Shown: positions 3,656 through 16,882 of the stretch, piece after piece
How the letters are laid out: every line of letters begins with the position of its first letter
How positions within the stretch are numbered: position 1 is the first letter of the stretch
From: Methylobacterium sp. Leaf91
GTDB taxonomy: Bacteria > Pseudomonadota > Alphaproteobacteria > Rhizobiales > Beijerinckiaceae
DNA length: 64,000 nt
Assembly (NCBI RefSeq): GCF_001422815.1
Contig: NZ_LMMP01000050.1
Coordinates: 113 to 64,112 of the forward strand
Direction: 5' to 3'
Notes under the pieces: generated by a model
Database searches by the model: none
What the model was told of the DNA's origin: nothing
What the model saw: only the letters and a program-made list of their open reading frames with translations
Program-made: the position numbers and the translations under genes

Positions 3656-6166
3656 TCAGCCGACGAGCGCGTTCATCGGCTTCGTCGTCAATTGCCTTAG
3701 GATGCGCCCGAGCTGTTCGGCCGAGTACGGCTTGTGCAGAAGCTCGAAACCCTCCGTTCCATCCTGCGCCAGGACGTGGCTGTAGCCTGAAGCGAGCAGT
3801 ATCGGCAGGCTCGGCAGTTGCGCGCGCAATCGCTTGGCCAGGGCGATGCCGCCCATGCCCGGCATCACGACATCCGAGAACACGGCGTCGAATCCGTTGC
3901 CCTCGCTCCCCAACAGCTCCAGCGCTTCCTCGGCATTGACGGCCCAGGTGGTGCGGTAGCCGAGGTCTTCGAGGATCTGCGTGGCGAAGCGGCCCACCTC
4001 GATATTGTCCTCGACCACCAGGACGCGCTGGCCCGCACCCATCGGGGAGCCCGGGGCCGGCTGCGGTATCTCGCGGTCCGCGCCGTTCTGCTCGATCACG
4101 ATCTCGGGCAGGTAGAGTGTGAACGTCGTGCCGTGCCCGAGCCTGGTCGACACGTCGACATCGCCGCCCGACTGCTTGGCGAAACCGAACACCTGGCTGA
4201 GGCCGAGGCCGGTTCCCTTCCCCACCTCCTTGGTGGTGAAGAACGGCTCGACGATGCGGCCCAACTGCTCAGGCGCGATTCCGGTGCCCGTATCGGTGAG
4301 GGAGATCGCCGCGAAGGCTCCGAGGGCGACCGCATGCCCCCGGATCGGCGACAGCTTTCCCCGGCGCACCAGAGTCAGGGTCAGGGTCCCCTCCCCGTCC
4401 ATCGCATCGCGGGCATTCACCGCCATGTTGACGAGGGCGGTCTCGAACTGGCTCAGGTCCGCCTTCACGAAGCAGGGCTCGTCGGGCGTTTCCACCGTCA
4501 GGCGAATGCGGGCCCCCGTCACGGTGTCGATCATCTCGGAGACGGCGCGCAGGCGCTCGCCGACCTCGAACACTTCGGGCTTGAGGGCCTGGCGGCGGGC
4601 GAAGGCGAGGAGCTGCCCGGTCAGCTTCGCGGCGCGGTCGACCGTATCGGACACGGCATCGAGGTAGCGCCGCTTGCGCTCCTCGGGCAGCTCCGGCCGG
4701 CGTAGGAAATCGACGGATGAGCGGATGATGGTCAGGAGGTTGTTGAAATCGTGCGCCACGCCTCCGGTCAGCTGCCCGACGGCCTCCATCTTCTGCGATT
4801 GGCGCAACGCTTCCTGCGTGTCGGCGAGTGCGGTCTCGGCGCGCAGCCGCTCCGAGATATCCTTGGCGTAGTGGAACGCCCCGACGATGTGTCCCACCTC
4901 GTCGCGCAAGGGCGAGTAGGACACCTCCCAATAGGGCTTCGCCAGGTCGGGGTCGCCGAATTCCTCGGTGACGGTGAATGTCTCGCCCCGGAGCGCGCGC
5001 TCCATCAACCCGCGCATGACCGGGGCCTGGTCCGGCGGGAACAGGTCGGGGAACACCTCGCCGACCTGCACGCGGTGGGCGAAGATGCGGAAGAACTCGT
5101 CGCTATGGGCCTGATTGAAGGCGATGAGCCGGTACGCGGTGTCGAAGGCGCAGATGGGCGCGGCGCTGGATTGGAGGATGTCGCGCGACAGACGAAGCTC
5201 CGCCGTCCGCTCCGCGACCTGCCGCTCCAGGTCGTCGTTCAGGGCTTGCAGGGCCTCCGCCCCGGCTTGCCGCGCGGTCTCGGCCCGGTAGCGCTCGGTG
5301 ATGTCGCGGGAGATGCCGACGAGCTTGAGGGCACTGCCCTCGTCAGGCTGGAATGGCGCGAAGCTCACCTCCCACCAGCGGAGGTCGCCATCGGCCGTCT
5401 GGGCCTGCCCCTCGATGCGTGAGACCTCTCCGGCGGCCGCCCGCCGGACGGCATCGCGCAGCTTGGCGCGCTCGCTCTCCGGCCAGAGGCCGGCATATTC
5501 CTGCCCCACCACGTCCTGGAGCGATCCGATCTGGTTCAGTTCGAGCCCCCGCGCGCTCATGAATTCCAGCGTGCCGTTGGCGGAGAGCACCTTCACGCAA
5601 TCTGGGCTCGCCCTGAGGATGCCTCTGACGAAGGCGTCGCTGCGCCGGAGCGCCTCCCGGTCGGCGAGGCGCCTATGCGCGTCGAGATGGAAGCCGATGA
5701 GGTCGGCGAACATCCTGAACATGCCGACGGTCTCCGGCGTGTTCAGTCGGGCCGGACGAGGGTCGATGGCGCAGAGCGTGCCGAAGAAGCTGCCGTCCGG
5801 CAGCGTGATGGGCATCGAGATGTAGCTCTGGAAGCCGTACATCTCCGGGGTCGGATGCGCCTGGTACGCCGGGTCCTCGGACACGTGGTCGATGACCACG
5901 CCCGTCCCGGACGAGCGGATCGCGTCGCAGATCGTGGTGGCGACCGGCAGCTCGCCGCCCGGCGCCAGACCGAAGGCGATGTCGTCCTTGACGCTACAGG
6001 CGACCCAGCGGTCGTCCGTCACCCTGGCGATGGCGGCGAAGCCCATGCCCGTCGTCCGACAGACCACGTTCAGGATCGTCGGAACCGCGGCGATGCCCTC
6101 GACCGCAATGATATCCGCCTGGAAGTCGTGCGGGGCGGACGGAGCGGCAATCGAGGCGGTCATCAT
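3656..6166 (-). CDS. Hybrid sensor histidine kinase (GAF-PAS-PAS-HisKA-HATPase-REC)
   Basis: An 836-residue soluble kinase with no membrane segment. A GAF domain spans about 22-165, PAS domains about 175-295 and 325-445, with a short coiled coil between them. The HisKA domain carries the phosphoacceptor His472 in GGVAHDFNNLLT. The HATPase has an N box near Asn584, DTGTGI near 625 and a G2 box GTGLGLSQVFG near 651. A C-terminal receiver domain (about 713-830) has acidic residues 719-720, phosphoacceptor Asp765 and Lys812. The AHDFNN H-box with a C-terminal receiver is common in kinases that sense light, redox state or small ligands through GAF/PAS. The ligand is unknown. The ATG overlaps the stop of the ParD gene by four bases (ATGA), so translation is probably coupled. 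Confidence 0.9.
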   Translation of the reverse strand: MMTASIAAPSAPHDFQADIIAVEGIAAVPTILNVVCRTTGMGFAAIARVTDDRWVACSVKDDIAFGLAPGGELPVATTICDAIRSSGTGVVIDHVSEDPAYQAHPTPEMYGFQSYISMPITLPDGSFFGTLCAIDPRPARLNTPETVGMFRMFADLIGFHLDAHRRLADREALRRSDAFVRGILRASPDCVKVLSANGTLEFMSARGLELNQIGSLQDVVGQEYAGLWPESERAKLRDAVRRAAAGEVSRIEGQAQTADGDLRWWEVSFAPFQPDEGSALKLVGISRDITERYRAETARQAGAEALQALNDDLERQVAERTAELRLSRDILQSSAAPICAFDTAYRLIAFNQAHSDEFFRIFAHRVQVGEVFPDLFPPDQAPVMRGLMERALRGETFTVTEEFGDPDLAKPYWEVSYSPLRDEVGHIVGAFHYAKDISERLRAETALADTQEALRQSQKMEAVGQLTGGVAHDFNNLLTIIRSSVDFLRRPELPEERKRRYLDAVSDTVDRAAKLTGQLLAFARRQALKPEVFEVGERLRAVSEMIDTVTGARIRLTVETPDEPCFVKADLSQFETALVNMAVNARDAMDGEGTLTLTLVRRGKLSPIRGHAVALGAFAAISLTDTGTGIAPEQLGRIVEPFFTTKEVGKGTGLGLSQVFGFAKQSGGDVDVSTRLGHGTTFTLYLPEIVIEQNGADREIPQPAPGSPMGAGQRVLVVEDNIEVGRFATQILEDLGYRTTWAVNAEEALELLGSEGNGFDAVFSDVVMPGMGGIALAKRLRAQLPSLPILLASGYSHVLAQDGTEGFELLHKPYSAEQLGRILRQLTTKPMNALVG

Positions 6167-7698: not shown

Positions 7699-8616
7699 AT
7701 GCGGGACAAGTTCGACGGCGTACAGATCTTCGTGGAGGCGGTAGAGGCTGGCGGGTTCGCGCGGGCGGCCGACCGGCTGTCCCTGTCCCGGTCCGCCGTC
7801 GGCAAGGCCGTGGCCCGGCTCGAGGAGCGGCTCGGCGTGCGTCTGTTCCAGCGGACCACGCGCACCCAGAGCCTGACGGAAGCCGGGCAGCAATTCTACG
7901 AACATTGCCTGCGCGCCGTCGCGGAATTGCGGACCGGCGAGGCGCTCCTCGAATCGGGCCGCCAGGAGGTGGCGGGGCGATTGCGGATCTCGATGCCGGT
8001 TCTCCTCGGCCGGCGCTGCGCGGCGCCGATCCTGCTCGACTACGCCAAGGCGCATCCGAAGCTGGAACTCGACCTGAATTTCAGCGACCGGGTCATCGAT
8101 CTGATCGCCGACGGCTTCGACCTCGGGCTGCGCTTCGGCGCGCTCGGCAACAACAGCTCCCTGCGTGCCCGGCGGCTGGTGACGGAACGTATGGTGCTCT
8201 GCGCCTCCCCGTCCTACCTCGATGCGCGCGGACGCCCGGAGGAGCTCGCGGATCTCGCCGGGCACGACGCGCTCGCCTATGCGCGCGGCGACCGCGGCTA
8301 TGCTTGGCGCCTGCCGGATGCCAACGGCGTCCTCGTCCCGGTTTCCCCACATTCCAGGCTGCGGTTCGACGACGTCGAAGTCATCCTGAGCGCCGCCAAG
8401 GCGGGGCTCGGCCTCTGCTGGCTTCAACACTGGCTGATCCGCGACAGCCTGCAAAAGGGTGAACTCGTCCAGCTCTGGGCGGAGCGGCCCTACGCGACCA
8501 TGGATTGCTACGCCGTCTGGCCCGCGGCACGGTATCTGCCGTTGCGGTCACGCCTCGCCATCGATGCGCTCGCCAGCCGGATGCCGAGTGACGGTATCGT
8601 CAAGCACCCTGGGTAG
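7699..8616 (+). CDS. LysR-family transcriptional regulator
   Basis: A 305-residue LysR protein. The N-terminal winged helix-turn-helix (AVEAGGFARAADRLSLSRSA through LEERLGVRLFQRTTR) is followed by a linker helix and a substrate-binding domain from about residue 90 (GRLRISMPVLLGRR). The binding domain resembles the DsdC/AaeR-like subgroup that often controls a divergent oxidoreductase. It probably regulates the SDR gene on the other side of the 207-base region and itself. The inducer is not predictable. Confidence 0.9.
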   Translation: MRDKFDGVQIFVEAVEAGGFARAADRLSLSRSAVGKAVARLEERLGVRLFQRTTRTQSLTEAGQQFYEHCLRAVAELRTGEALLESGRQEVAGRLRISMPVLLGRRCAAPILLDYAKAHPKLELDLNFSDRVIDLIADGFDLGLRFGALGNNSSLRARRLVTERMVLCASPSYLDARGRPEELADLAGHDALAYARGDRGYAWRLPDANGVLVPVSPHSRLRFDDVEVILSAAKAGLGLCWLQHWLIRDSLQKGELVQLWAERPYATMDCYAVWPAARYLPLRSRLAIDALASRMPSDGIVKHPG

Positions 8617-8839
8617 GATCGCGGAGCCCCCCGGGAGATATGCGGGAGTGGGCCGTTCAGGGGGCGGCCCGATTCGGTTCATAGGCTATCGACCTGTCTT
8701 GCCGATTCATCACCGAGGAGCGGGCAGATCCCAACCTTGCCATAGACGGCGATTGACTGACTTCCCGAAAGCAGATGTCCACCGGCCCAAGACTGGCCGT
8801 GCTCCACGGGGATGCGGCTGTGATCGACGCACCCACGAG

Positions 8840-9742
8840 CTATGAGGTTTGCGCTTCGGTGAGATAGTCCCAAAGCTCGTCGGCGGCGTGATTGCGGCAC
8901 TCGAGCGAGCGGAACAGTCTGATCTCGATGGGCACGTCGAACTGTTCGTGCCCCGCGCGGACGAGGCGACCGCGCGTCTGATCGTCGGCCGCGACCGTTT
9001 GTGGGAGCCAGGCGACGCCGTGCCCCTCGCGCGCCATGGTCGTCAGCGTCGCGGCGAGATGCGAGGTGAAGCGGGTGTCGAGGTGGAACGAATCCCCGTT
9101 GCGGCAGCTCGCCAGGATGCGCCCGAGGCCCGAGGCCTGGCTGTAGGCCAGGTAGGGAACCGGCTCGGCGGACGATCCCGGCAACGACCACAGACCCGCG
9201 CCGTCTCCCGAGGGCGCGCAAAGCGGGATGAGACGATCGTCGCCGACCCGCACGCTCTCGAACCGGTCGGGCTCGAACCGTGTCGGGGCGTTCCCGTGGA
9301 AGTGGCAGAGCAGGAAGTGCACCTCGCCCGACAGCATGATCTGCTCGCACGCTTCCATGCTGTCCGAAATGAGATTGAGCGTGCCCAGGGTCCGGGATCG
9401 CATGACCCGGCGGACCCAACTCGGAAAGAACGTGAACGATAGAGCGTGGGTCGCGGCGATGGAGAGCGTCGCCGTATCCTGAGCGCCCACCGCCCGCGTC
9501 TCGCGGCGGGCCCGCTCCAGGCTGTGCAGCAGAGCCTGGGCTGCCGGGAGGAAGGTGACGCCGGCCGGGGTCAGCGCCGCCCCTTGCGCGCCCCGTGCGA
9601 AGAGCGGCGTCCCGACCCAATCCTCGAGAGCCCGGATGCGCCGGCTGAAGGCCGGCTGCGTCACGCTCCGGGCCTCCGCCGCCCGCGAGAACGTCTTCTG
9701 CTCCGCCAGCGCGAGGAAGTCCTTCAGCCAGTCCAGATCCAT
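8840..9742 (-). CDS. LysR-family regulator of the tartrate/C4-dicarboxylate island
   Basis: A 300-residue LysR protein with a clear helix-turn-helix (LALAEQKTFSRAAEARSVTQ, then PAFSRRIRALEDWVGTPLFA) and an effector domain from about residue 90. It is divergent from the dctA-type transporter, 190 bases away, and is the likely regulator of the catabolic genes 9933-14968, with a dicarboxylate or its product as inducer (inference from position). The start codon lies inside an imperfect 18-base tandem repeat that also creates a four-codon reading frame (ATG GAT CTG GGC TGA) just upstream. The 223 bases between this stop and the previous LysR gene hold no clear terminator. Confidence 0.9.
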   Translation of the reverse strand: MDLDWLKDFLALAEQKTFSRAAEARSVTQPAFSRRIRALEDWVGTPLFARGAQGAALTPAGVTFLPAAQALLHSLERARRETRAVGAQDTATLSIAATHALSFTFFPSWVRRVMRSRTLGTLNLISDSMEACEQIMLSGEVHFLLCHFHGNAPTRFEPDRFESVRVGDDRLIPLCAPSGDGAGLWSLPGSSAEPVPYLAYSQASGLGRILASCRNGDSFHLDTRFTSHLAATLTTMAREGHGVAWLPQTVAADDQTRGRLVRAGHEQFDVPIEIRLFRSLECRNHAADELWDYLTEAQTS

Positions 9743-9779
9743 CGATCAGCCCAGATCCATCGGTCGGACCATGTCCATC
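9726..9779 (-). repeat. Three imperfect 18-base tandem units over the LysR start codon
   Basis: Reading the minus strand, units start at 9779 (GATGGACATGGTCCGACC), 9761 (GATGGATCTGGGCTGATC) and 9743 (GATGGATCTGGACTGGCT). The last unit contains the LysR start ATG. Units 2 and 3 agree at 14 of 18 positions. The array copies the translation start region and could affect initiation or operator spacing. Confidence 0.75.
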
Positions 9780-9932
9780 CGTCCGTCCAGCCCGATGCCG
9801 TTCGCGCATAGCCCGAACCGAACATGGCATTGGCCGGACGAGGGTGTCCAGGCGTACCCACAGCATCAAGCCCCACAAGAGGGATCACTAATCAAGCTGC
9901 CCGCTAAGTGGCAGATCAGGAGGAAACAGATC

Positions 9933-11264
<1,332 letters not shown>

Positions 11265-11338
11265 ACCTTCCGGGTGCTTTCGTCCGCTTCCATCCCTTCC
11301 CCCCGCGCGAATCCCTTCGCATCTCAAGGAGAGCCACC

Positions 11339-12502
11339 ATGCGTATCGTCGACGTCTGCGAGATCACCAAGCCGATCTCCTCGCCCATCCGCAACGCCTA
11401 TATCGACTTCTCGAAGATGACCGCCAGCCTCGTGGCCGTGGTCACGGACGTGGAGCGCGACGGCCGCCGGGTGGTGGGCTACGGCTTCAATTCCAACGGC
11501 CGCTACGGCCAGGGCGGCCTGATCCGCGAGCGCTTCAAGAACCGCATCCTCGAGGCCGAGCCCGCGAGCGTGCTCAACGAGGCCGGTGACAATCTCGACC
11601 CGCACAAGCTCTGGGCGGCGATGATGACCAACGAGAAGCCCGGCGGCCACGGCGAGCGCTCGGTGGCGGTGGGCACCCTCGACATGGCCATCTGGGACGC
11701 CACCGCCAAGATCGCCGGCAAGCCGCTGTTCCGGATGCTCGCCGAGCAGAAGGGCGTCGAGGCCAATCCGCGCGTCTTCGTCTACGCGGCCGGCGGCTAT
11801 TACTATCCCGGCAAGGACGACACCCAGCTGCGCGCCGAGATGCGCGGCTACCTCGACCGTGGCTACAACGTCGTGAAGATGAAGATCGGCGGCGTGCCGA
11901 TCGAGGAGGACCAGCGCCGCATCGAGGCCGTGCTGAAGGAGATCGGCTCGCAGGCGCAGCTCGCCGTCGACGTGAACGGCCGCTTCAACCTCGAACAGGG
12001 CATCGCCTACGCCAAGATGCTGCGCCAGTATCCGCTGTTCTGGTACGAGGAGATCGGCGATCCCCTCGACTACGCCCTGCAGGCCGCGATCTCCGAGTTC
12101 TATCCCGGCCCGATGGCGACCGGCGAGAACCTGTTCTCGCACCAGGATGCCCGCAACCTCCTGCGCTACGGCGGCATGCGGCCCGACCGCGACTACCTGC
12201 AGTTCGACTGCGCCCTGTCCTACGGACTCGTCGAGTACCTGCGCACCCTCGACGTGCTGGAGCAGTTCGGCTGGTCGCCCAAACGCTGCATCCCGCATGG
12301 CGGTCACCAGATGTCGCTCAACATTGCGGCCGGCCTCGGGCTGGGTGGCAACGAGAGCTACCCGGACCTGTTCCAGCCCTATGGCGGCTTCCCGGACGGG
12401 GTGAAGGTCGAGGACGGCCACATCGTCATGCCGGAGCTTCCCGGCATCGGCTTCGAGGGCAAGTCGGACCTGATCAAGGTCATGCGCGAACTCGCCGAGT
12501 AA
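11339..12502 (+). CDS. tarD: D(-)-tartrate dehydratase, enolase superfamily
   Basis: A 387-residue enzyme of the mandelate racemase/muconate lactonizing group that dehydrates D-tartrate to oxaloacetate (EC 4.2.1.81) with Mg2+. The sequence follows the Bradyrhizobium TarD that I remember, offset by two residues. The expected catalytic set is present: Lys100, Lys180-x-Lys182 (VVKMKIGG), metal ligands Asp211, Glu237 and Glu263, and the base His320 (CIPHGGHQMS). N-terminal and 20s-loop residues (SPIRNAYIDFSKM, FNSNGRYGQGG) also match. The start ATG follows AAGGAG. It sits 74 bases after dctA, almost certainly in the same transcript. This is the gene that best defines the island as tartrate catabolism. 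Confidence 0.92.
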   Translation: MRIVDVCEITKPISSPIRNAYIDFSKMTASLVAVVTDVERDGRRVVGYGFNSNGRYGQGGLIRERFKNRILEAEPASVLNEAGDNLDPHKLWAAMMTNEKPGGHGERSVAVGTLDMAIWDATAKIAGKPLFRMLAEQKGVEANPRVFVYAAGGYYYPGKDDTQLRAEMRGYLDRGYNVVKMKIGGVPIEEDQRRIEAVLKEIGSQAQLAVDVNGRFNLEQGIAYAKMLRQYPLFWYEEIGDPLDYALQAAISEFYPGPMATGENLFSHQDARNLLRYGGMRPDRDYLQFDCALSYGLVEYLRTLDVLEQFGWSPKRCIPHGGHQMSLNIAAGLGLGGNESYPDLFQPYGGFPDGVKVEDGHIVMPELPGIGFEGKSDLIKVMRELAE

Positions 12503-12514
12503 GCGGCGACCGAT

Positions 12515-12544
12515 CCGTGCGGGGCGCGATCCGGCCCCGCACGG
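12515..12544 (+). other. Strong intercistronic hairpin after tarD
   Basis: An 11-base perfect inverted repeat (CCGTGCGGGGC with GCCCCGCACGG, 8-base loop) starts 12 bases after the tarD stop. It lacks a T-run, so it looks less like a rho-independent terminator than an mRNA-stabilising or processing hairpin that could set tarD expression above that of the downstream genes. Confidence 0.6.
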
Positions 12545-12616
12545 CTTCCACCGCCGTCGCCCGGCTCCGGGCGGCGGCCGTCTCCCGGGAATCGACGTGC
12601 CGAGGAAATCCGTACG

Positions 12617-12892
12617 ATGCGACCGCTCAGTGATGAGGAGCGAGCCGTTCTGTCCGCTTTGACCGAAGATTTCGTCAGCGCCACGGTGGTCAAGGTCAGG
12701 TCCGGCCTTCCGCGCGGCCAGAGGAACGAGACAGTCCTCGCGGCCTGTATGGGATTGGCGCAACGCGGTCTTGCCGAGCGGGTCGGCTCCGGGTTGCGGT
12801 CCACCCTCCGTTGGCGGAAAGCACAAGGTGGCTTCGCCCCGGAGCGGGAGCGCCACCTCCACGGAACACGCAACCGCGAAGAGGCCCCATGA
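12617..12892 (+). CDS. Uncharacterised 91-residue protein coupled to the 2-hydroxyacid dehydrogenase
   Basis: I do not recognise a family. The first 65 residues are predicted helical (LSDEERAVLSALTEDFVSAT, then NETVLAACMGLAQRGLAERV), ending in a short strand-like SGLRSTLRWRK, which resembles a small winged-helix layout. The last 25 residues are charged and probably disordered. Its TGA overlaps the ATG of the following dehydrogenase (ATGA), a strong sign of real translation and coupling. It lies inside the tartrate operon between tarD and the dehydrogenases. It could be a small regulator or accessory protein. The coding call rests on context and helical periodicity. Confidence 0.55.
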   Translation: MRPLSDEERAVLSALTEDFVSATVVKVRSGLPRGQRNETVLAACMGLAQRGLAERVGSGLRSTLRWRKAQGGFAPERERHLHGTRNREEAP

Positions 12893-13863
12893 CAGCGCAT
12901 GCGAAGGCGGAGATCCTGCTGCTGAAGGCGATCCTGCCCGATACGATCCGGGCCCTCGACGAGCGCTTCGTCCTCCACCGCCTCGATCGGGCCACCGACC
13001 GGGACGCGTTCCTGGCGGAGGTCGGCCCGGCCATTCGCGGCGTGGTGGTGGGAGGACAGGCGCCGGCGGAAGCCGATCTCTTCGCGCGCCTCCCCGCCCT
13101 GGAGATCGTCGCCAATTTCGGTGTCGGCTACGACACGATCGACGTCGCGGCCGCCAAGGACCGGGGCGCCGTCGTCACCAACACCCCGGACGTGCTCACC
13201 GAGGAGGTCGCCGACCTCGCCCTCGGCCTGCTCCTCGCCACCGTCCGCCGCCTCCCACAGGCCGACCGCTATCTCCGCGCGGGCGCCTGGCCGAAAGCCC
13301 CGTTTCCGCTCTCGCCCTCCCTGCGCGGGCGCCGCATCGGCATCCTCGGCCTCGGGCGGATCGGGCACGCCATCGCCACGCGCCTCGACGGATTCGGCTG
13401 CGCCATCGCCTATCACGGCCGCCGCAGGCAAACCGAGGTGGCCTATGACTACCACCCGAGCGCGGTTGAATTGGCGCGGGCCTGCGACATCCTCGTAGTC
13501 GTGGCGCCCGGCGGCGGAGCCGGGCCCCTCGTCACCGCGGAGGTGCTGGGCGCCCTCGGCCCGGAGGGCATCCTCATCAACGTGGCGCGCGGCAGCCTCA
13601 TCGACGAGCCGGCCCTGATCGCGGCCCTCCAGCAGGGTGTGATCCACTCGGCCGGCCTCGACGTATTCGCGAACGAACCTCGGGTTCCCGATGCCCTCAT
13701 GGCCTTGGACAACGTCGTTCTTTTGCCCCATGTCGGCTCGGCCACCCATTACACCCGCCGCGCCATGGGAAACCTCCTCGTGGACAATCTGGTCTCCTGG
13801 TTCGAGGGTCGGGGACCGGTGACGCCTGTCGCCGAGACGCCGTGGCCATCGAGCGCCGACTAA
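12889..13863 (+). CDS. D-isomer-specific 2-hydroxyacid dehydrogenase (glyoxylate/hydroxypyruvate reductase-like)
   Basis: A 324-residue NAD(P)-dependent enzyme. The catalytic triad is visible: Arg234 (NVARGSLID), Glu263 (FANEP) and His281 (LPHVGSATHYTR). The Rossmann motif GLGRIG is at 154-159, and HGRRR near residue 176 carries arginines that favour NADPH. The early block VANFGVGYDTID is typical of plant-type HPR2/GHRB enzymes. In this setting it probably reduces hydroxypyruvate, tartronate semialdehyde or oxaloglycolate-derived products to D-glycerate, completing tartrate breakdown (inference). The start overlaps the 91-residue gene. An upstream in-frame start exists but would overlap that gene more deeply. 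Confidence 0.88.
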   Translation: MTAHAKAEILLLKAILPDTIRALDERFVLHRLDRATDRDAFLAEVGPAIRGVVVGGQAPAEADLFARLPALEIVANFGVGYDTIDVAAAKDRGAVVTNTPDVLTEEVADLALGLLLATVRRLPQADRYLRAGAWPKAPFPLSPSLRGRRIGILGLGRIGHAIATRLDGFGCAIAYHGRRRQTEVAYDYHPSAVELARACDILVVVAPGGGAGPLVTAEVLGALGPEGILINVARGSLIDEPALIAALQQGVIHSAGLDVFANEPRVPDALMALDNVVLLPHVGSATHYTRRAMGNLLVDNLVSWFEGRGPVTPVAETPWPSSAD

Positions 13864-13894
13864 TCCCCAAACCCCTCCGCGGAGTTCCATTTCC

Positions 13895-14968
13895 ATGACA
13901 TCACGCAGCTATCGCATCGCCGTCATTCCGGGCGACGGGATCGGCAAGGAGGTCGTGCCGGAGGGCGTGCGCGTCCTCGAGAAGGCGGCCAAGCGCCACG
14001 GCTTTAGCCTCGAGTTCGACTGGTTCGACTTCGCGAGCTGCGATTATTACGAGCGGCACAACCGGATGATGCCGGAGGACTGGAAGGCGCAGATCGGCGG
14101 CCACGACGCGATCTTCTTCGGGGCCGTCGGCATGCCGGACAGGGTGCCCGATCACGTCTCGCTCTGGGGCTCGCTGATCCTGTTCCGGCGTGAGTTTGAC
14201 CAATACGCCAACCTGCGCCCCGTGCGCCTGATGCCGGGCGTGAAGAGCCCGCTCGCTGACCGCAAGCCCGGCGACATCGATTTCTGGGTGGTCCGCGAGA
14301 ACACGGAAGGGGAATACTCGAATGCGGGCGGGCGCATGTTCGCCGGCACGGACCGCGAATTCGCCCTGCAGGAGACGATCATGACGCGCCACGGCGTCGA
14401 CCGCATCCTGAAATTCGCCTTCGAGCTGGCCCAGAGCCGCCCGAAAAAGCACCTGACCTCGGCCACCAAGTCCAACGGCATCTCGATCACGATGCCCTAT
14501 TGGGACGAGCGGGTGAAGGAGATGGCCAAGGCCTACCCGGACGTGGCCTGGGACCAGTACCATATCGACATTCTGACGGCCCATTTCGTGCTGAACCCGG
14601 ACCGGTTCGACGTGGTTGTCGCCTCGAACCTGTTCGGCGACATCCTCTCCGACCTCGGACCCGCCTGCACGGGCACGATCGGCATCGCGCCCTCCGGCAA
14701 CATCAACCCGGAGCGGCTCTTCCCCTCGGTGTTCGAGCCGGTGCACGGCTCGGCCCCCGACATCGCCGGCCAGGGCATCGCCAACCCCATCGGCCAGATC
14801 TGGTCCGGCTCGATGATGCTGGAGCATCTCGGCGAGCCCGAGGCCGCCCGGGAGATCGTCACAGGTATCGAGCGCGTCCTCTCCGAGCGGACCCTGCGCA
14901 CCCGCGATCTCGGCGGCAACGCCGATACCGAAGCCTGCGGCAGGGCGGTGGAAGAAGCCCTCGGATAA
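13895..14968 (+). CDS. ttuC: Tartrate dehydrogenase/decarboxylase, TtuC type
   Basis: A 357-residue member of the isopropylmalate/isocitrate dehydrogenase family. The N-terminus IAVIPGDGIGKEVVPEGVRV, the substrate block with Arg residues at FRREFDQYANLRPVR, VRENTEGEYSNAGGR, the Lys in LTSATKSNGISITMPYWDER and the metal site SNLFGDILSDLGP are in the expected order. TtuC enzymes oxidise (+)-tartrate to oxaloglycolate, decarboxylate meso-tartrate to D-glycerate and D-malate to pyruvate, using NAD+ with Mn2+ and K+. D-malate/leucine paralogues (DmlA) cannot be excluded, but the tarD context favours tartrate. It lies 31 bases after the dehydrogenase and closes the operon. Confidence 0.9.
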   Translation: MTSRSYRIAVIPGDGIGKEVVPEGVRVLEKAAKRHGFSLEFDWFDFASCDYYERHNRMMPEDWKAQIGGHDAIFFGAVGMPDRVPDHVSLWGSLILFRREFDQYANLRPVRLMPGVKSPLADRKPGDIDFWVVRENTEGEYSNAGGRMFAGTDREFALQETIMTRHGVDRILKFAFELAQSRPKKHLTSATKSNGISITMPYWDERVKEMAKAYPDVAWDQYHIDILTAHFVLNPDRFDVVVASNLFGDILSDLGPACTGTIGIAPSGNINPERLFPSVFEPVHGSAPDIAGQGIANPIGQIWSGSMMLEHLGEPEAAREIVTGIERVLSERTLRTRDLGGNADTEACGRAVEEALG

Positions 14969-15384
14969 GGGCATCCGGCTGGAACGGCAGGACGCGGCCA
15001 CCGACGCCGAAGGCCGCATACTCGATCAGACCGGCGTCGGACCTTCCGGCGCCGGTACTTTCGTCGTCCGCTCCCGGCAAACAGCCGGTTGAAGTCCACC
15101 TGTGACTTCCATTCGGGGCGACGACCGAGCGTCCGGTTCCCGCGATCAAGATCAATCTACACTAAGGTCGACCTAGCCCTCCGTACCGAACGAGGTCGTG
15201 GCCTCCCGATTGCGCCGATGAGTGGCGAGTGGGGACGAAGCGCCATGGGATCATCGCTGAGGAGCATCGCGAGCGAGACTGAGGATACCAGGCAGGGGCC
15301 ACGCAAAAACTGCTCATCGATGCCGTCAGGTGGACACCACGTCCCGATTGTTCGCGCTGTCCGGCAGATACCTCTCAGAGAACC
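14969..15384. other. Intergenic region after the tartrate operon
   Basis: About 415 bases with no convincing gene. An imperfect hairpin at 15030-15056 (ACCGGCGTCGG with CCGGCGCCGGT, one mismatch) followed by ACTTTC may end the operon. An open frame at 15089-15433 on the plus strand has unbiased codons and runs through the terminator of the tRNA, so I do not call it. Confidence 0.45.
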
Positions 15385-15414
15385 AAAAAGCCCCGGACCA
15401 GGGGTCCAGGGCTC
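15385..15414 (-). terminator. Rho-independent terminator of the tRNA-Met transcript
   Basis: On the minus strand GCCCTGGACC pairs with GGTCCGGGGC (one G-U pair) across a short loop and is followed by TTTTT. It lies 34 bases past the tRNA 3' end. Confidence 0.85.
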
Positions 15415-15447
15415 AAAGGCTAGGTCGATCTAACGACTAGGAATGAT

Positions 15448-15524
15448 TGGTAGCGAGGGAGAGATTTGAACTCCCGACACAAGGATTATGATTCCTCTGC
15501 TCTAACCAACTGAGCTACCCCGCC
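15448..15524 (-). tRNA. tRNA-Met (anticodon CAT, elongator type)
   Basis: A 77-base cloverleaf. The acceptor stem GGCGGGG pairs with CCTCGCT (two G-U pairs), the discriminator is A and CCA is encoded. The D arm contains AGCTCAGTTGGTTAGAGC. The anticodon loop ATCATAA gives anticodon CAT on a GAGGA/TCCTT stem, and the T arm includes GTTCAAATC. Body and stem bases match alphaproteobacterial elongator tRNA-Met rather than initiator, which would have a mismatched first pair and GGG/CCC in the anticodon stem. It also differs from the CAT-bearing isoleucine tRNA. Confidence 0.93.
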
Positions 15525-15571
15525 ACAACAAAGGAACCCGCGCGGTGCAGGCGCCCCTGAAGAGATCGGCG

Positions 15572-15600
15572 GTATAAAGAAATCCGCCTTCGGGTGTCAA
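15572..15600 (-). promoter_or_regulatory. Near-consensus sigma-70 promoter for tRNA-Met
   Basis: Minus strand TTGACA (15600-15595) is separated by exactly 17 bases from TTATAC (15577-15572). Transcription would start near 15565, about 40 bases upstream of the tRNA. The -35 overlaps the hairpin behind trpB, so the tRNA has its own promoter. Confidence 0.8.
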
Positions 15601-15632
15601 CGGGGAGTTTGCCACTTGCGAGCTCCCCGTTG
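15598..15632 (-). other. Hairpin immediately downstream of trpB
   Basis: A perfect 10-base inverted repeat, CAACGGGGAG (15598-15607) and CTCCCCGTTG (15623-15632), with a 15-base loop lies 8 bases after the trpB stop. No U-run follows. It may stabilise the trp mRNA end or stop transcription with help before the tRNA promoter. Confidence 0.6.
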
Positions 15633-15640
15633 CGGTTTTC

Positions 15641-16882
15641 TCAGAGGCGGGTTCCCAGGATTTCGGCCACCTGCGGGATGTCCTTGTCGCCACGGCCCGA
15701 GAGATTGAGCACCATCAGGTGTTCGGCCGGCTTCGTCGGCGCGATTTCGAACACCTTGGCGAGGGCGTGAGCCGGCTCCAGGGCCGGGATGATGCCCTCC
15801 AGCATCGAGCACAGCTTGAACGCTTCCAGCGTCTCGGAATCCGTCGCCGAGAGGTAGGTGACGCGCTTGGCCTCGTGCAGCCAAGCGTGTTCGGGGCCGA
15901 TGCCGGGATAATCGAGGCCGGCGGAGATCGAGTGGGCGTCGGCGATCTGGCCGTCCTCGTTCTGAAGAAGGTAGGTTCGGTTGCCATGGAGCACTCCCGG
16001 CTTCCCGCCGGAGAGGGAGGCGGCGTGCAGGCCCGACGAGATGCCGTGGCCGGCGGCCTCGACGCCGTAGATCTCCACCTCGCGGTCGTCGAGGAACGGG
16101 TGGAACAACCCCATGGCGTTGGAGCCGCCGCCGATACAGGCGATGAGCGAGTCGGGCAGTCGCCCTTCCATCTCCAGCATCTGCTCCTTCGTCTCCCGGC
16201 CAATGATCGATTGGAAATCGCGCACCATCGCCGGATAGGGATGCGGGCCGGCCACCGTGCCGATGCAGTAGAACGTATCTGCGACGTTGGTGACCCAGTC
16301 GCGCAACGCCTCGTTCATGGCGTCCTTGAGGGTCTTGGTGCCGGATTCCACCGGGATCACCTCGGCGCCGAGCATCTTCATGCGGAAGACGTTGGGCGCT
16401 TGGCGCGCTACGTCGACGGCGCCCATGTAGACGACGCATTTCAAGCCGAACCGGGCGCAGAGGGTGGCGGTGGCGACCCCGTGCTGCCCGGCGCCCGTCT
16501 CGGCGATGATCCGGGGCTTGCCCATGCGGCGGGCCAGCATGATCTGACCGAGCACGTTGTTCACCTTGTGCGAACCGGTATGGTTCAACTCCTCGCGCTT
16601 GAAGAAGACCTTGGCTCCGTGACCCGGGGCCGATGCCGCGCGCAGGTGCTCGGTCAGGCGCTCGGCATAGTAGAGCGGGCTCGGACGGCCGACATAATGG
16701 GTCAGATGGCCGTTCATCTCCTGCTGGAAGGACGGATCTGCCTTCGCTTCCGTATAGGCCTTCTCGAGATCGAGGATGAGCGGCATCAGCGTCTCGGCGA
16801 CGAAGCGTCCGCCAAAGATGCCGAAGCGGCCGCGCTCGTCCGGTCCGTTGCGGAACGAGTTCGGAGAGGGGGCGATGGTCAA
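15641..16882 (-). CDS. trpB: Tryptophan synthase beta subunit
   Basis: A 413-residue PLP enzyme that condenses indole (channelled from TrpA) with serine. It has the opening [19 protein letters not shown], the PLP lysine in [10 protein letters not shown], the [20 protein letters not shown] loop and the phosphate-binding GGGSNAMG. I place the start at the TTG at 16882 because AAGGA precedes it at normal distance and TrpB homology starts within a few residues. No ATG is available until residue 34, and the longer upstream frame has no family likeness. It follows trpF by 136 bases. No trpA follows, which is unusual because trpB and trpA are normally adjacent. Confidence 0.95.

Follow-up and report, generated by a model that had tools for sequence, protein, structure and literature searches.

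Comparison with relatives shows that the small open reading frame (ORF) at positions 12617–12892 (plus strand) of the window, by which we mean the whole 64,000-nucleotide stretch of Methylobacterium sp. Leaf91 DNA that was analysed, is a protein-coding gene. It is a member of an as yet nameless family that our searches found in no other genus. Profile comparisons make it very probable that the product folds as a winged helix. The further reading, that this small basic winged-helix protein is an accessory, operon-encoded regulator that binds DNA, we regard as an even call; both DNA binding and regulation are inferred from the fold, the charge, and the neighbourhood of the gene.

A small gene in a D-tartrate operon

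The ORF is part of a tartrate operon. A divergent LysR-type regulator is encoded on the minus strand (8840–9742; Pfam HTH_1, 4e-20; LysR_substrate, 2e-19). On the plus strand follow dctA, for a C4-dicarboxylate transporter (9876–11264; NF002461, 596 bits for a cut-off of 513), tarD, for a D-tartrate dehydratase of the enolase superfamily (11339–12502), the ORF, a gene for a D-isomer-type 2-hydroxyacid dehydrogenase (12889–13863; Pfam 2-Hacid_dh_C, 1e-45; PDB 5j23 group, E = 1e-94), and a gene for tartrate dehydrogenase (TDH; 13895–14968; TIGR02089, 594 bits for a cut-off of 470). TarD matches PDB entries 1tzz/2dw6/2dw7 (E ~ 1e-231), the Bll6730 protein, which we take to be a D-tartrate dehydratase. 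The 2-hydroxyacid dehydrogenase resembles glyoxylate/hydroxypyruvate reductases and is called the reductase below. A tRNA gene, the sole Rfam match in 8500–15800, lies shortly 3′ of the operon (15451–15524, minus strand). The initial annotation had described a 91-residue ORF at 12617–12892, placed between the tartrate dehydratase and 2-hydroxyacid dehydrogenase genes and overlapping the next start by ATGA, and all of this is borne out.

The ORF, predicted to encode a winged-helix protein, consists of 91 codons and a stop. From the tarD stop to the conserved core, the frame contains no ATG, GTG, or TTG other than ATG 12617, and a Shine-Dalgarno-like AGGA lies 10 nt 5′ of this start (12603–12606, plus strand). 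Because the stop of the ORF and the start of the reductase gene (12889) share ATGA, translational coupling of the two is plausible; GAAGAGG, a Shine-Dalgarno-like sequence for the reductase gene, falls within the 3′ end of the ORF (12878–12884, plus strand). Alignment divides the protein into a conserved core of residues 1–69 (12617–12823, plus strand), which ends in STLRWRKA and is the family-wide part, and a C-terminal tail of 22 residues (12824–12889, plus strand), which is not conserved in the family and runs into the reductase start. Residues 31–69 have a charge of +5.8 and a pI of 11.9.

The 114-nt gap between tarD and the ORF can fold into two GC-rich hairpins of 11 pairs each on the plus strand, both without a T-run, one directly 3′ of tarD (12515–12544; −28.1 kcal/mol and z −2.29 for 12500–12550) and one 5′ of the ORF (12553–12578); the z of the whole 117-nt stretch is weak (−1.65). 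The first is a possible mRNA-stabilising or attenuating element. Scans for terminators and promoters gave no more matches than expected by chance and called neither hairpin a terminator. Upstream, the intergenic region of LysR and dctA (9743–9875) contains blocks, CGCATAG... and CCGAACATGGCATTGGCC, that by eye are kept with few changes in 20 TarD operons, the ORF being present in 8 of these, reduced to a remnant in 2, and absent from 10. These are the TarD operons that have LysR and dctA matches, and 7 further TarD stretches lack such a pair. The blocks are likely the LysR operator. Since they are conserved with or without the ORF, basic induction of the operon is probably independent of it, and no extra site tracking the presence of the ORF was seen by eye in the LysR/dctA regions of the 20 operons.

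The substitution pattern is that of a protein gene with a constrained core. Between the window and two Methylobacterium bullatum records, dN of the core is well below dS (0.007–0.013 and 0.095–0.116), which is why we regard the core as constrained. Against M. bullatum L104, the core differs by 6 synonymous and 2 non-synonymous changes (dN 0.013, dS 0.116) and the tail by 0 and 3; against M. bullatum LR743510, the corresponding counts are 5 and 1 in the core and 0 and 2 in the tail. The changes in the tail are few and therefore weak evidence for absent constraint there. Genome G007 differs at three positions (core, 0 synonymous and 1 non-synonymous; tail, 1 and 1), too few to tell. In the more distant G016, dN is 0.27 and dS 0.75, and the first, second, and third codon positions differ at 15, 22, and 40 sites, respectively. 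The ORF is fast-evolving: in the same pair of genomes (G000, the window genome, and G016), dN of TarD is 0.041. Its GC3 is 0.74, against 0.87–0.94 in neighbour genes.

Family and fold

We define the family by a core of about 67 aa that matches profile A1; most members end in RWRR or similar. The ORF matches this profile at 6.5e-30 (A1 contains the ORF itself) and, as a lone query, finds homologues in G016 at 1e-28 and in G005 at 3e-23. After matches under 55 aa were dropped, counts were made and a tree was inferred (36 rows, few columns, midpoint root; L022 left out of 37 unique sequences). One group, clade A (22 members, 98/94), holds the window ORF and every member found in an acid operon.

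The family was found in a single genus. A single-sequence search was positive for 23 of 149 genomes, counting that of the window, all in one of 57 genera and none in the other 56, and the 22-row profile matched 36 of the 111 genomes of this genus, some of them with fragments only. Several full and fragmentary copies each occur in G018, G076, G085, and G087. GTDB here places Methylobacterium and Methylorubrum carriers in one genus; the named carriers are two M. bullatum records and one plasmid of Methylorubrum populi, where the product is a "hypothetical protein". Across the order, 2 of 397 genomes match, both of the window's genus (to which nine of the 397 are listed as belonging), a weak negative given that 15 candidates were scored per genome. 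We rejected a phage or plasmid origin: the phage collection contains no match to the family, and the only plasmid matches are in a 2.8-Mb M. bullatum record and in M. populi pMPPM03. The many fragments and the up to six matches per genome point to frequent duplication and decay within the family.

The initial annotation had stated that the protein matches no family known to its author, which holds for Pfam and NCBIfam at their curated cut-offs. Below them, Pfam gives only DprA_WH (0.077) and HATPase_c_4 (0.18). The members scanned against Pfam are likewise not covered above cut-off, neither HTH_20 nor MarR_2 nor DprA_WH scores above its curated cut-off, and six of the seven clade-A members scanned singly have no Pfam match at 0.01. 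One member of clade B, the sister of clade A, matches HTH_20 at 1.5e-5 (25.3 bits, against a cut-off of 27), MarR_2 at 3e-5, and DprA_WH at 1.5e-4, all below cut-off, and two others match such models more weakly. A PHROG named transcriptional regulator is matched by 7 of 22 members (best, 1.7e-5).

We compared the profiles of clade A (21 rows, window included) and clade B (14 rows) by hhalign with each other and with 28 HTH_20 and 28 MarR_2 domains taken from relatives, using column shuffles as the control; G082b (clade A), two of 30 HTH_20 loci, and one of 29 MarR_2 loci were dropped. Clade A matches clade B at 99.3%, and clade B matches HTH_20 at 93.7% and MarR_2 at 89.9%. Compared directly, clade A matches HTH_20 at 28% and MarR_2 at 9.6% over 17 columns, with scores of 21.5 and 18.7, while 40 column shuffles reached at most 13.5 and 14.4, respectively. 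The similarity to winged-helix superfamily profiles is thus reached through homology with clade B, and it is because this sister clade links clade A to HTH_20- and MarR-type profiles that a winged helix is supported. A PDB sequence search with the profile gave a best E of 0.4, and AlphaFold2 on the single sequence gave two helices and no wing (mean pLDDT 69.5 and 72.5, pTM 0.40–0.42). Of the "winged-helix-like" layout put forward in the initial annotation, which had named a sensitive profile search as one way to check it, the profile comparison supports the fold, mainly by way of clade B; the direct clade-A match is weak and the single-sequence model contained two helices only.

The family appears to have the order of helices and a GLxER-type start of the wing in common with ArsR/HTH_20 (PF12840) and MarR_2 (PF12802), but its members are shorter, we noticed no dimerisation helices or metal/ligand motif in them, and all their matches to these models are below curated cut-offs, those of clade A being weak. 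DprA_WH (PF17782) is matched weakly by 8 of 22 members (best, 1.2e-4), again below cut-off, and the ORF encodes a stand-alone small protein rather than the end of a DprA.

Losses, fusions, and genomic contexts

Of the 111 genomes of the genus, 52 contain TarD, at 54 places in all. Downstream DNA was compared at 30 of them, one per genome: the ORF is intact at 8, reduced to a remnant at 2 (G033 and G001), and absent at 20, two of which had chance-level matches (E 1.6 and 2). Comparing the list of the remaining 24 places with that of the profile matches, we found no match adjoining any. The initial annotation had held that absence from close relatives with the same operon would argue against a gene; the ORF is indeed missing beside most TarD genes, but it is intact in eight genomes that represent eight species. 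On the well-supported branches of the TarD tree, at least three changes are needed to account for its presence. This tree is poorly resolved and does not fix the order of gains and losses of the vicinal oxygen chelate (VOC) domain described below. The ORF is dispensable and often lost.

Several gene orders occur. The order dctA-tarD-ORF-reductase-TDH is found in the window, G007, and M. bullatum LR743510, and G074 has the same order with the ORF joined to a VOC domain. In G045, dctA, tarD, and the joined gene are followed by a fragment of the reductase, and no TDH was found in the stretch examined; in G005 and G155, the series dctA-tarD-[ORF+VOC] ends near the contig end. G016 has dctA-tarD-ORF alone. 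Its ORF ends in APWPSSAS, which resembles the end of the window's reductase (TPWPSSAD), so the reductase seems to have been lost there and the ORF kept. G029 has tarD-reductase-TDH without the ORF. In G033, some 240 bases are missing from the ORF region and some 800 from the reductase. VOC follows tarD without the ORF in G032, G164, and a second copy in G045, and remnants of both ORF and VOC occur in G001.

The fusion is found 3′ of tarD in four genomes (G005, G074, G045, and G155; loci L067, L070, L071, and L135), where the ORF homologue runs in frame, through a linker of roughly ten residues and without a stop, into a domain of the VOC/glyoxalase superfamily (PF00903; 7.5e-13 and 6e-15 in both fusions scanned, with no NCBIfam family above cut-off). 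No stop precedes the VOC part, so if the ORF part is made into protein, and its conservation points that way, the product must be a fusion, about 206 aa long in the G074 type. Internal initiation at the methionine of VOC could yield VOC alone as well, since VOC homologues elsewhere stand without the ORF. VOC proteins are as a rule metal enzymes; the fusion could be a ligand-sensing version of the ORF protein. The ORF of the window ends where the reductase gene begins, has no VOC domain, and does not belong to this fused type.

Beyond tarD, relatives adjoin other genes for related acids. In a raw count, 14 of the 22 clade-A members lie directly 3′ of genes through which 2-hydroxy or dicarboxylic acids are taken up or broken down; eight of these are the tarD genomes, which are not independent, and six are other cases with gaps of about 25 to 300 nt. 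A relative follows lldP (permease above cut-off) and an lldD-like gene (protein below cut-off) in G002, M. populi pMPPM03 (G156), and G158. In G031 it follows dctA-leuC-leuD with a divergent LysR, the LysR and DctA being 48–49% identical to those of the window. In G020, the relative comes after genes for YdiJ (a D-2-hydroxyglutarate dehydrogenase), for a DUF1932 dehydrogenase that matches 2-Hacid_dh_C weakly, and for an amidohydrolase, the last being read as two ORFs. G016 has two tartrate-type operons with one ORF copy after each; the second (L206/L076) comprises genes for an MFS transporter and a glycerate-2-kinase-like protein (both below cut-off), tartrate dehydrogenase and pyruvate kinase (both above), and enolase, in the order MFS, tartrate dehydrogenase, glycerate-2-kinase-like, pyruvate kinase, enolase, ORF paralogue. 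It recalls ttuABCDE, reportedly the tartrate operon of Agrobacterium vitis, in its tartrate dehydrogenase, pyruvate kinase, and glycerate-2-kinase-like genes, but adds enolase and the small gene behind it; ttuABCDE is not known to include such a small gene.

By eye, no acid operon is present near the other 8 of the 22 clade-A members (G042, G065, G009, G070, G010, G071, G031b, and G082b). Some copies outside operons, e.g., those of G042 and G018b, have transposase-like genes no more than a few kb away (by eye), and G082b lies 5′ of an MFS transporter gene. A divergent, longer paralogue in L152 (G082; match 4479–4694) lies 5′ of genes that by eye encode an MFS transporter and an amidohydrolase, a position that resembles more that of a classical regulator.

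Role of the protein and its meaning

In the regulator reading, tartrate would act by way of the divergently encoded LysR protein to induce the operon, and the small protein would be produced together with the enzymes. It would contact DNA with the basic half at its C terminus, i.e., helix 3 and the wing, and would tune its own operon or related hydroxy-acid operons, most simply by negative feedback. Because the ORF is dispensable and often lost, the protein would supplement the control exerted by LysR. Speaking against this reading, some relatives are only slightly basic or not basic (pI 6.8 in G074; charge of the C-terminal half +0.7 in G016). The "small regulator" of the initial annotation is the role best supported by fold, charge, and neighbourhood, a support that is inferential rather than experimental. 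A more speculative extension, which we consider rather unlikely, is that of a portable winged-helix add-on: a single family, limited to Methylobacterium and its close kin, would have been placed repeatedly at the 3′ end of varied 2-hydroxy-acid operons or close to it, would link these pathways by feedback regulation, and would have gained a VOC metabolite sensor in part of the D-tartrate lineage. In tarD operons, the window's included, the ORF is often not the last gene.

The main rival to the regulator reading is a hitchhiking gene, mobile, fast-changing, and slowly decaying, that settles behind expressed genes and has no role in tartrate metabolism. We judge it unlikely, if clearly the strongest of the alternatives. 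It would account for the patchy distribution, the many fragments, the deletion or reduction in G033 and G001, the deviating GC3, the high dN relative to TarD, and the transposase-like genes near some non-operon copies. It would also fit the comparison of G002 with G156, whose lldD-like genes are 93% identical while the small genes are 54% identical and fall in different supported groups of the tree, a mismatch that could reflect replacement, separate arrival, or fast divergence. Yet dN of the core is below dS, and the six hydroxy-acid/dicarboxylate contexts (the two lldD lineages being counted apart) seem, by raw count, too coherent for random capture.

It is quite improbable that the protein binds no DNA and is instead a partner of an operon enzyme, be it TarD, the reductase, or the VOC enzyme. 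The position between enzyme genes, the overlap with the reductase start, and the in-frame VOC fusion in four genomes would fit such a partner, but they are countered by the winged-helix profile and the basic C-terminal half. Synteny argues specifically against a dedicated reductase partner, which is unlikely, and disfavours the binding partner of the dehydrogenase that the initial annotation had hinted at: the reductase is absent in G016, the ORF is absent in G029, and relatives lie behind unrelated enzymes (lldD-like, LeuD, enolase, and amidohydrolase). No reductase was recognised in these last contexts, of which G031 was searched by tblastn; G020 has its weak match.

An RNA-binding or translational regulator acting on the tarD-ORF hairpins or the coupled start is more doubtful still. 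The protein is small and basic, and stable hairpins are found directly 3′ of tarD in the window genome, G029, and G045, but G029 has its hairpin without the ORF, and the z of the whole window gap is only −1.65. Finally, a chance reading frame in a GC-rich genome, for which one might cite the lack of a family match above cut-off (the missing annotation under the M. bullatum match has no weight, as that record's gene table holds one feature), is contradicted by dN well under dS and by in-frame homologues of 50–70% identity; the M. populi homologue has a protein annotation (WP_157914323.1).

Small winged-helix proteins encoded within operons are of an ordinary kind; what makes this family interesting is its common location behind hydroxy-acid genes, together with the VOC fusion. 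In the titles and abstract openings of the literature searched, we found nothing on this gene and no transcriptional regulator combining a vicinal oxygen chelate domain with a winged helix. Even as a mere hitchhiker, the gene would exemplify a fast-moving family settling behind metabolic genes. Methylobacterium lives on leaves, where tartrate, lactate, glycerate, and glycolate probably serve as carbon sources. If the regulator reading is true, a shared small regulator would offer a simple handle on the genus-wide coordination of hydroxy-acid operons, a group of "hypothetical proteins" would gain a name, and the VOC fusions would be a testable one-protein metabolite sensor.
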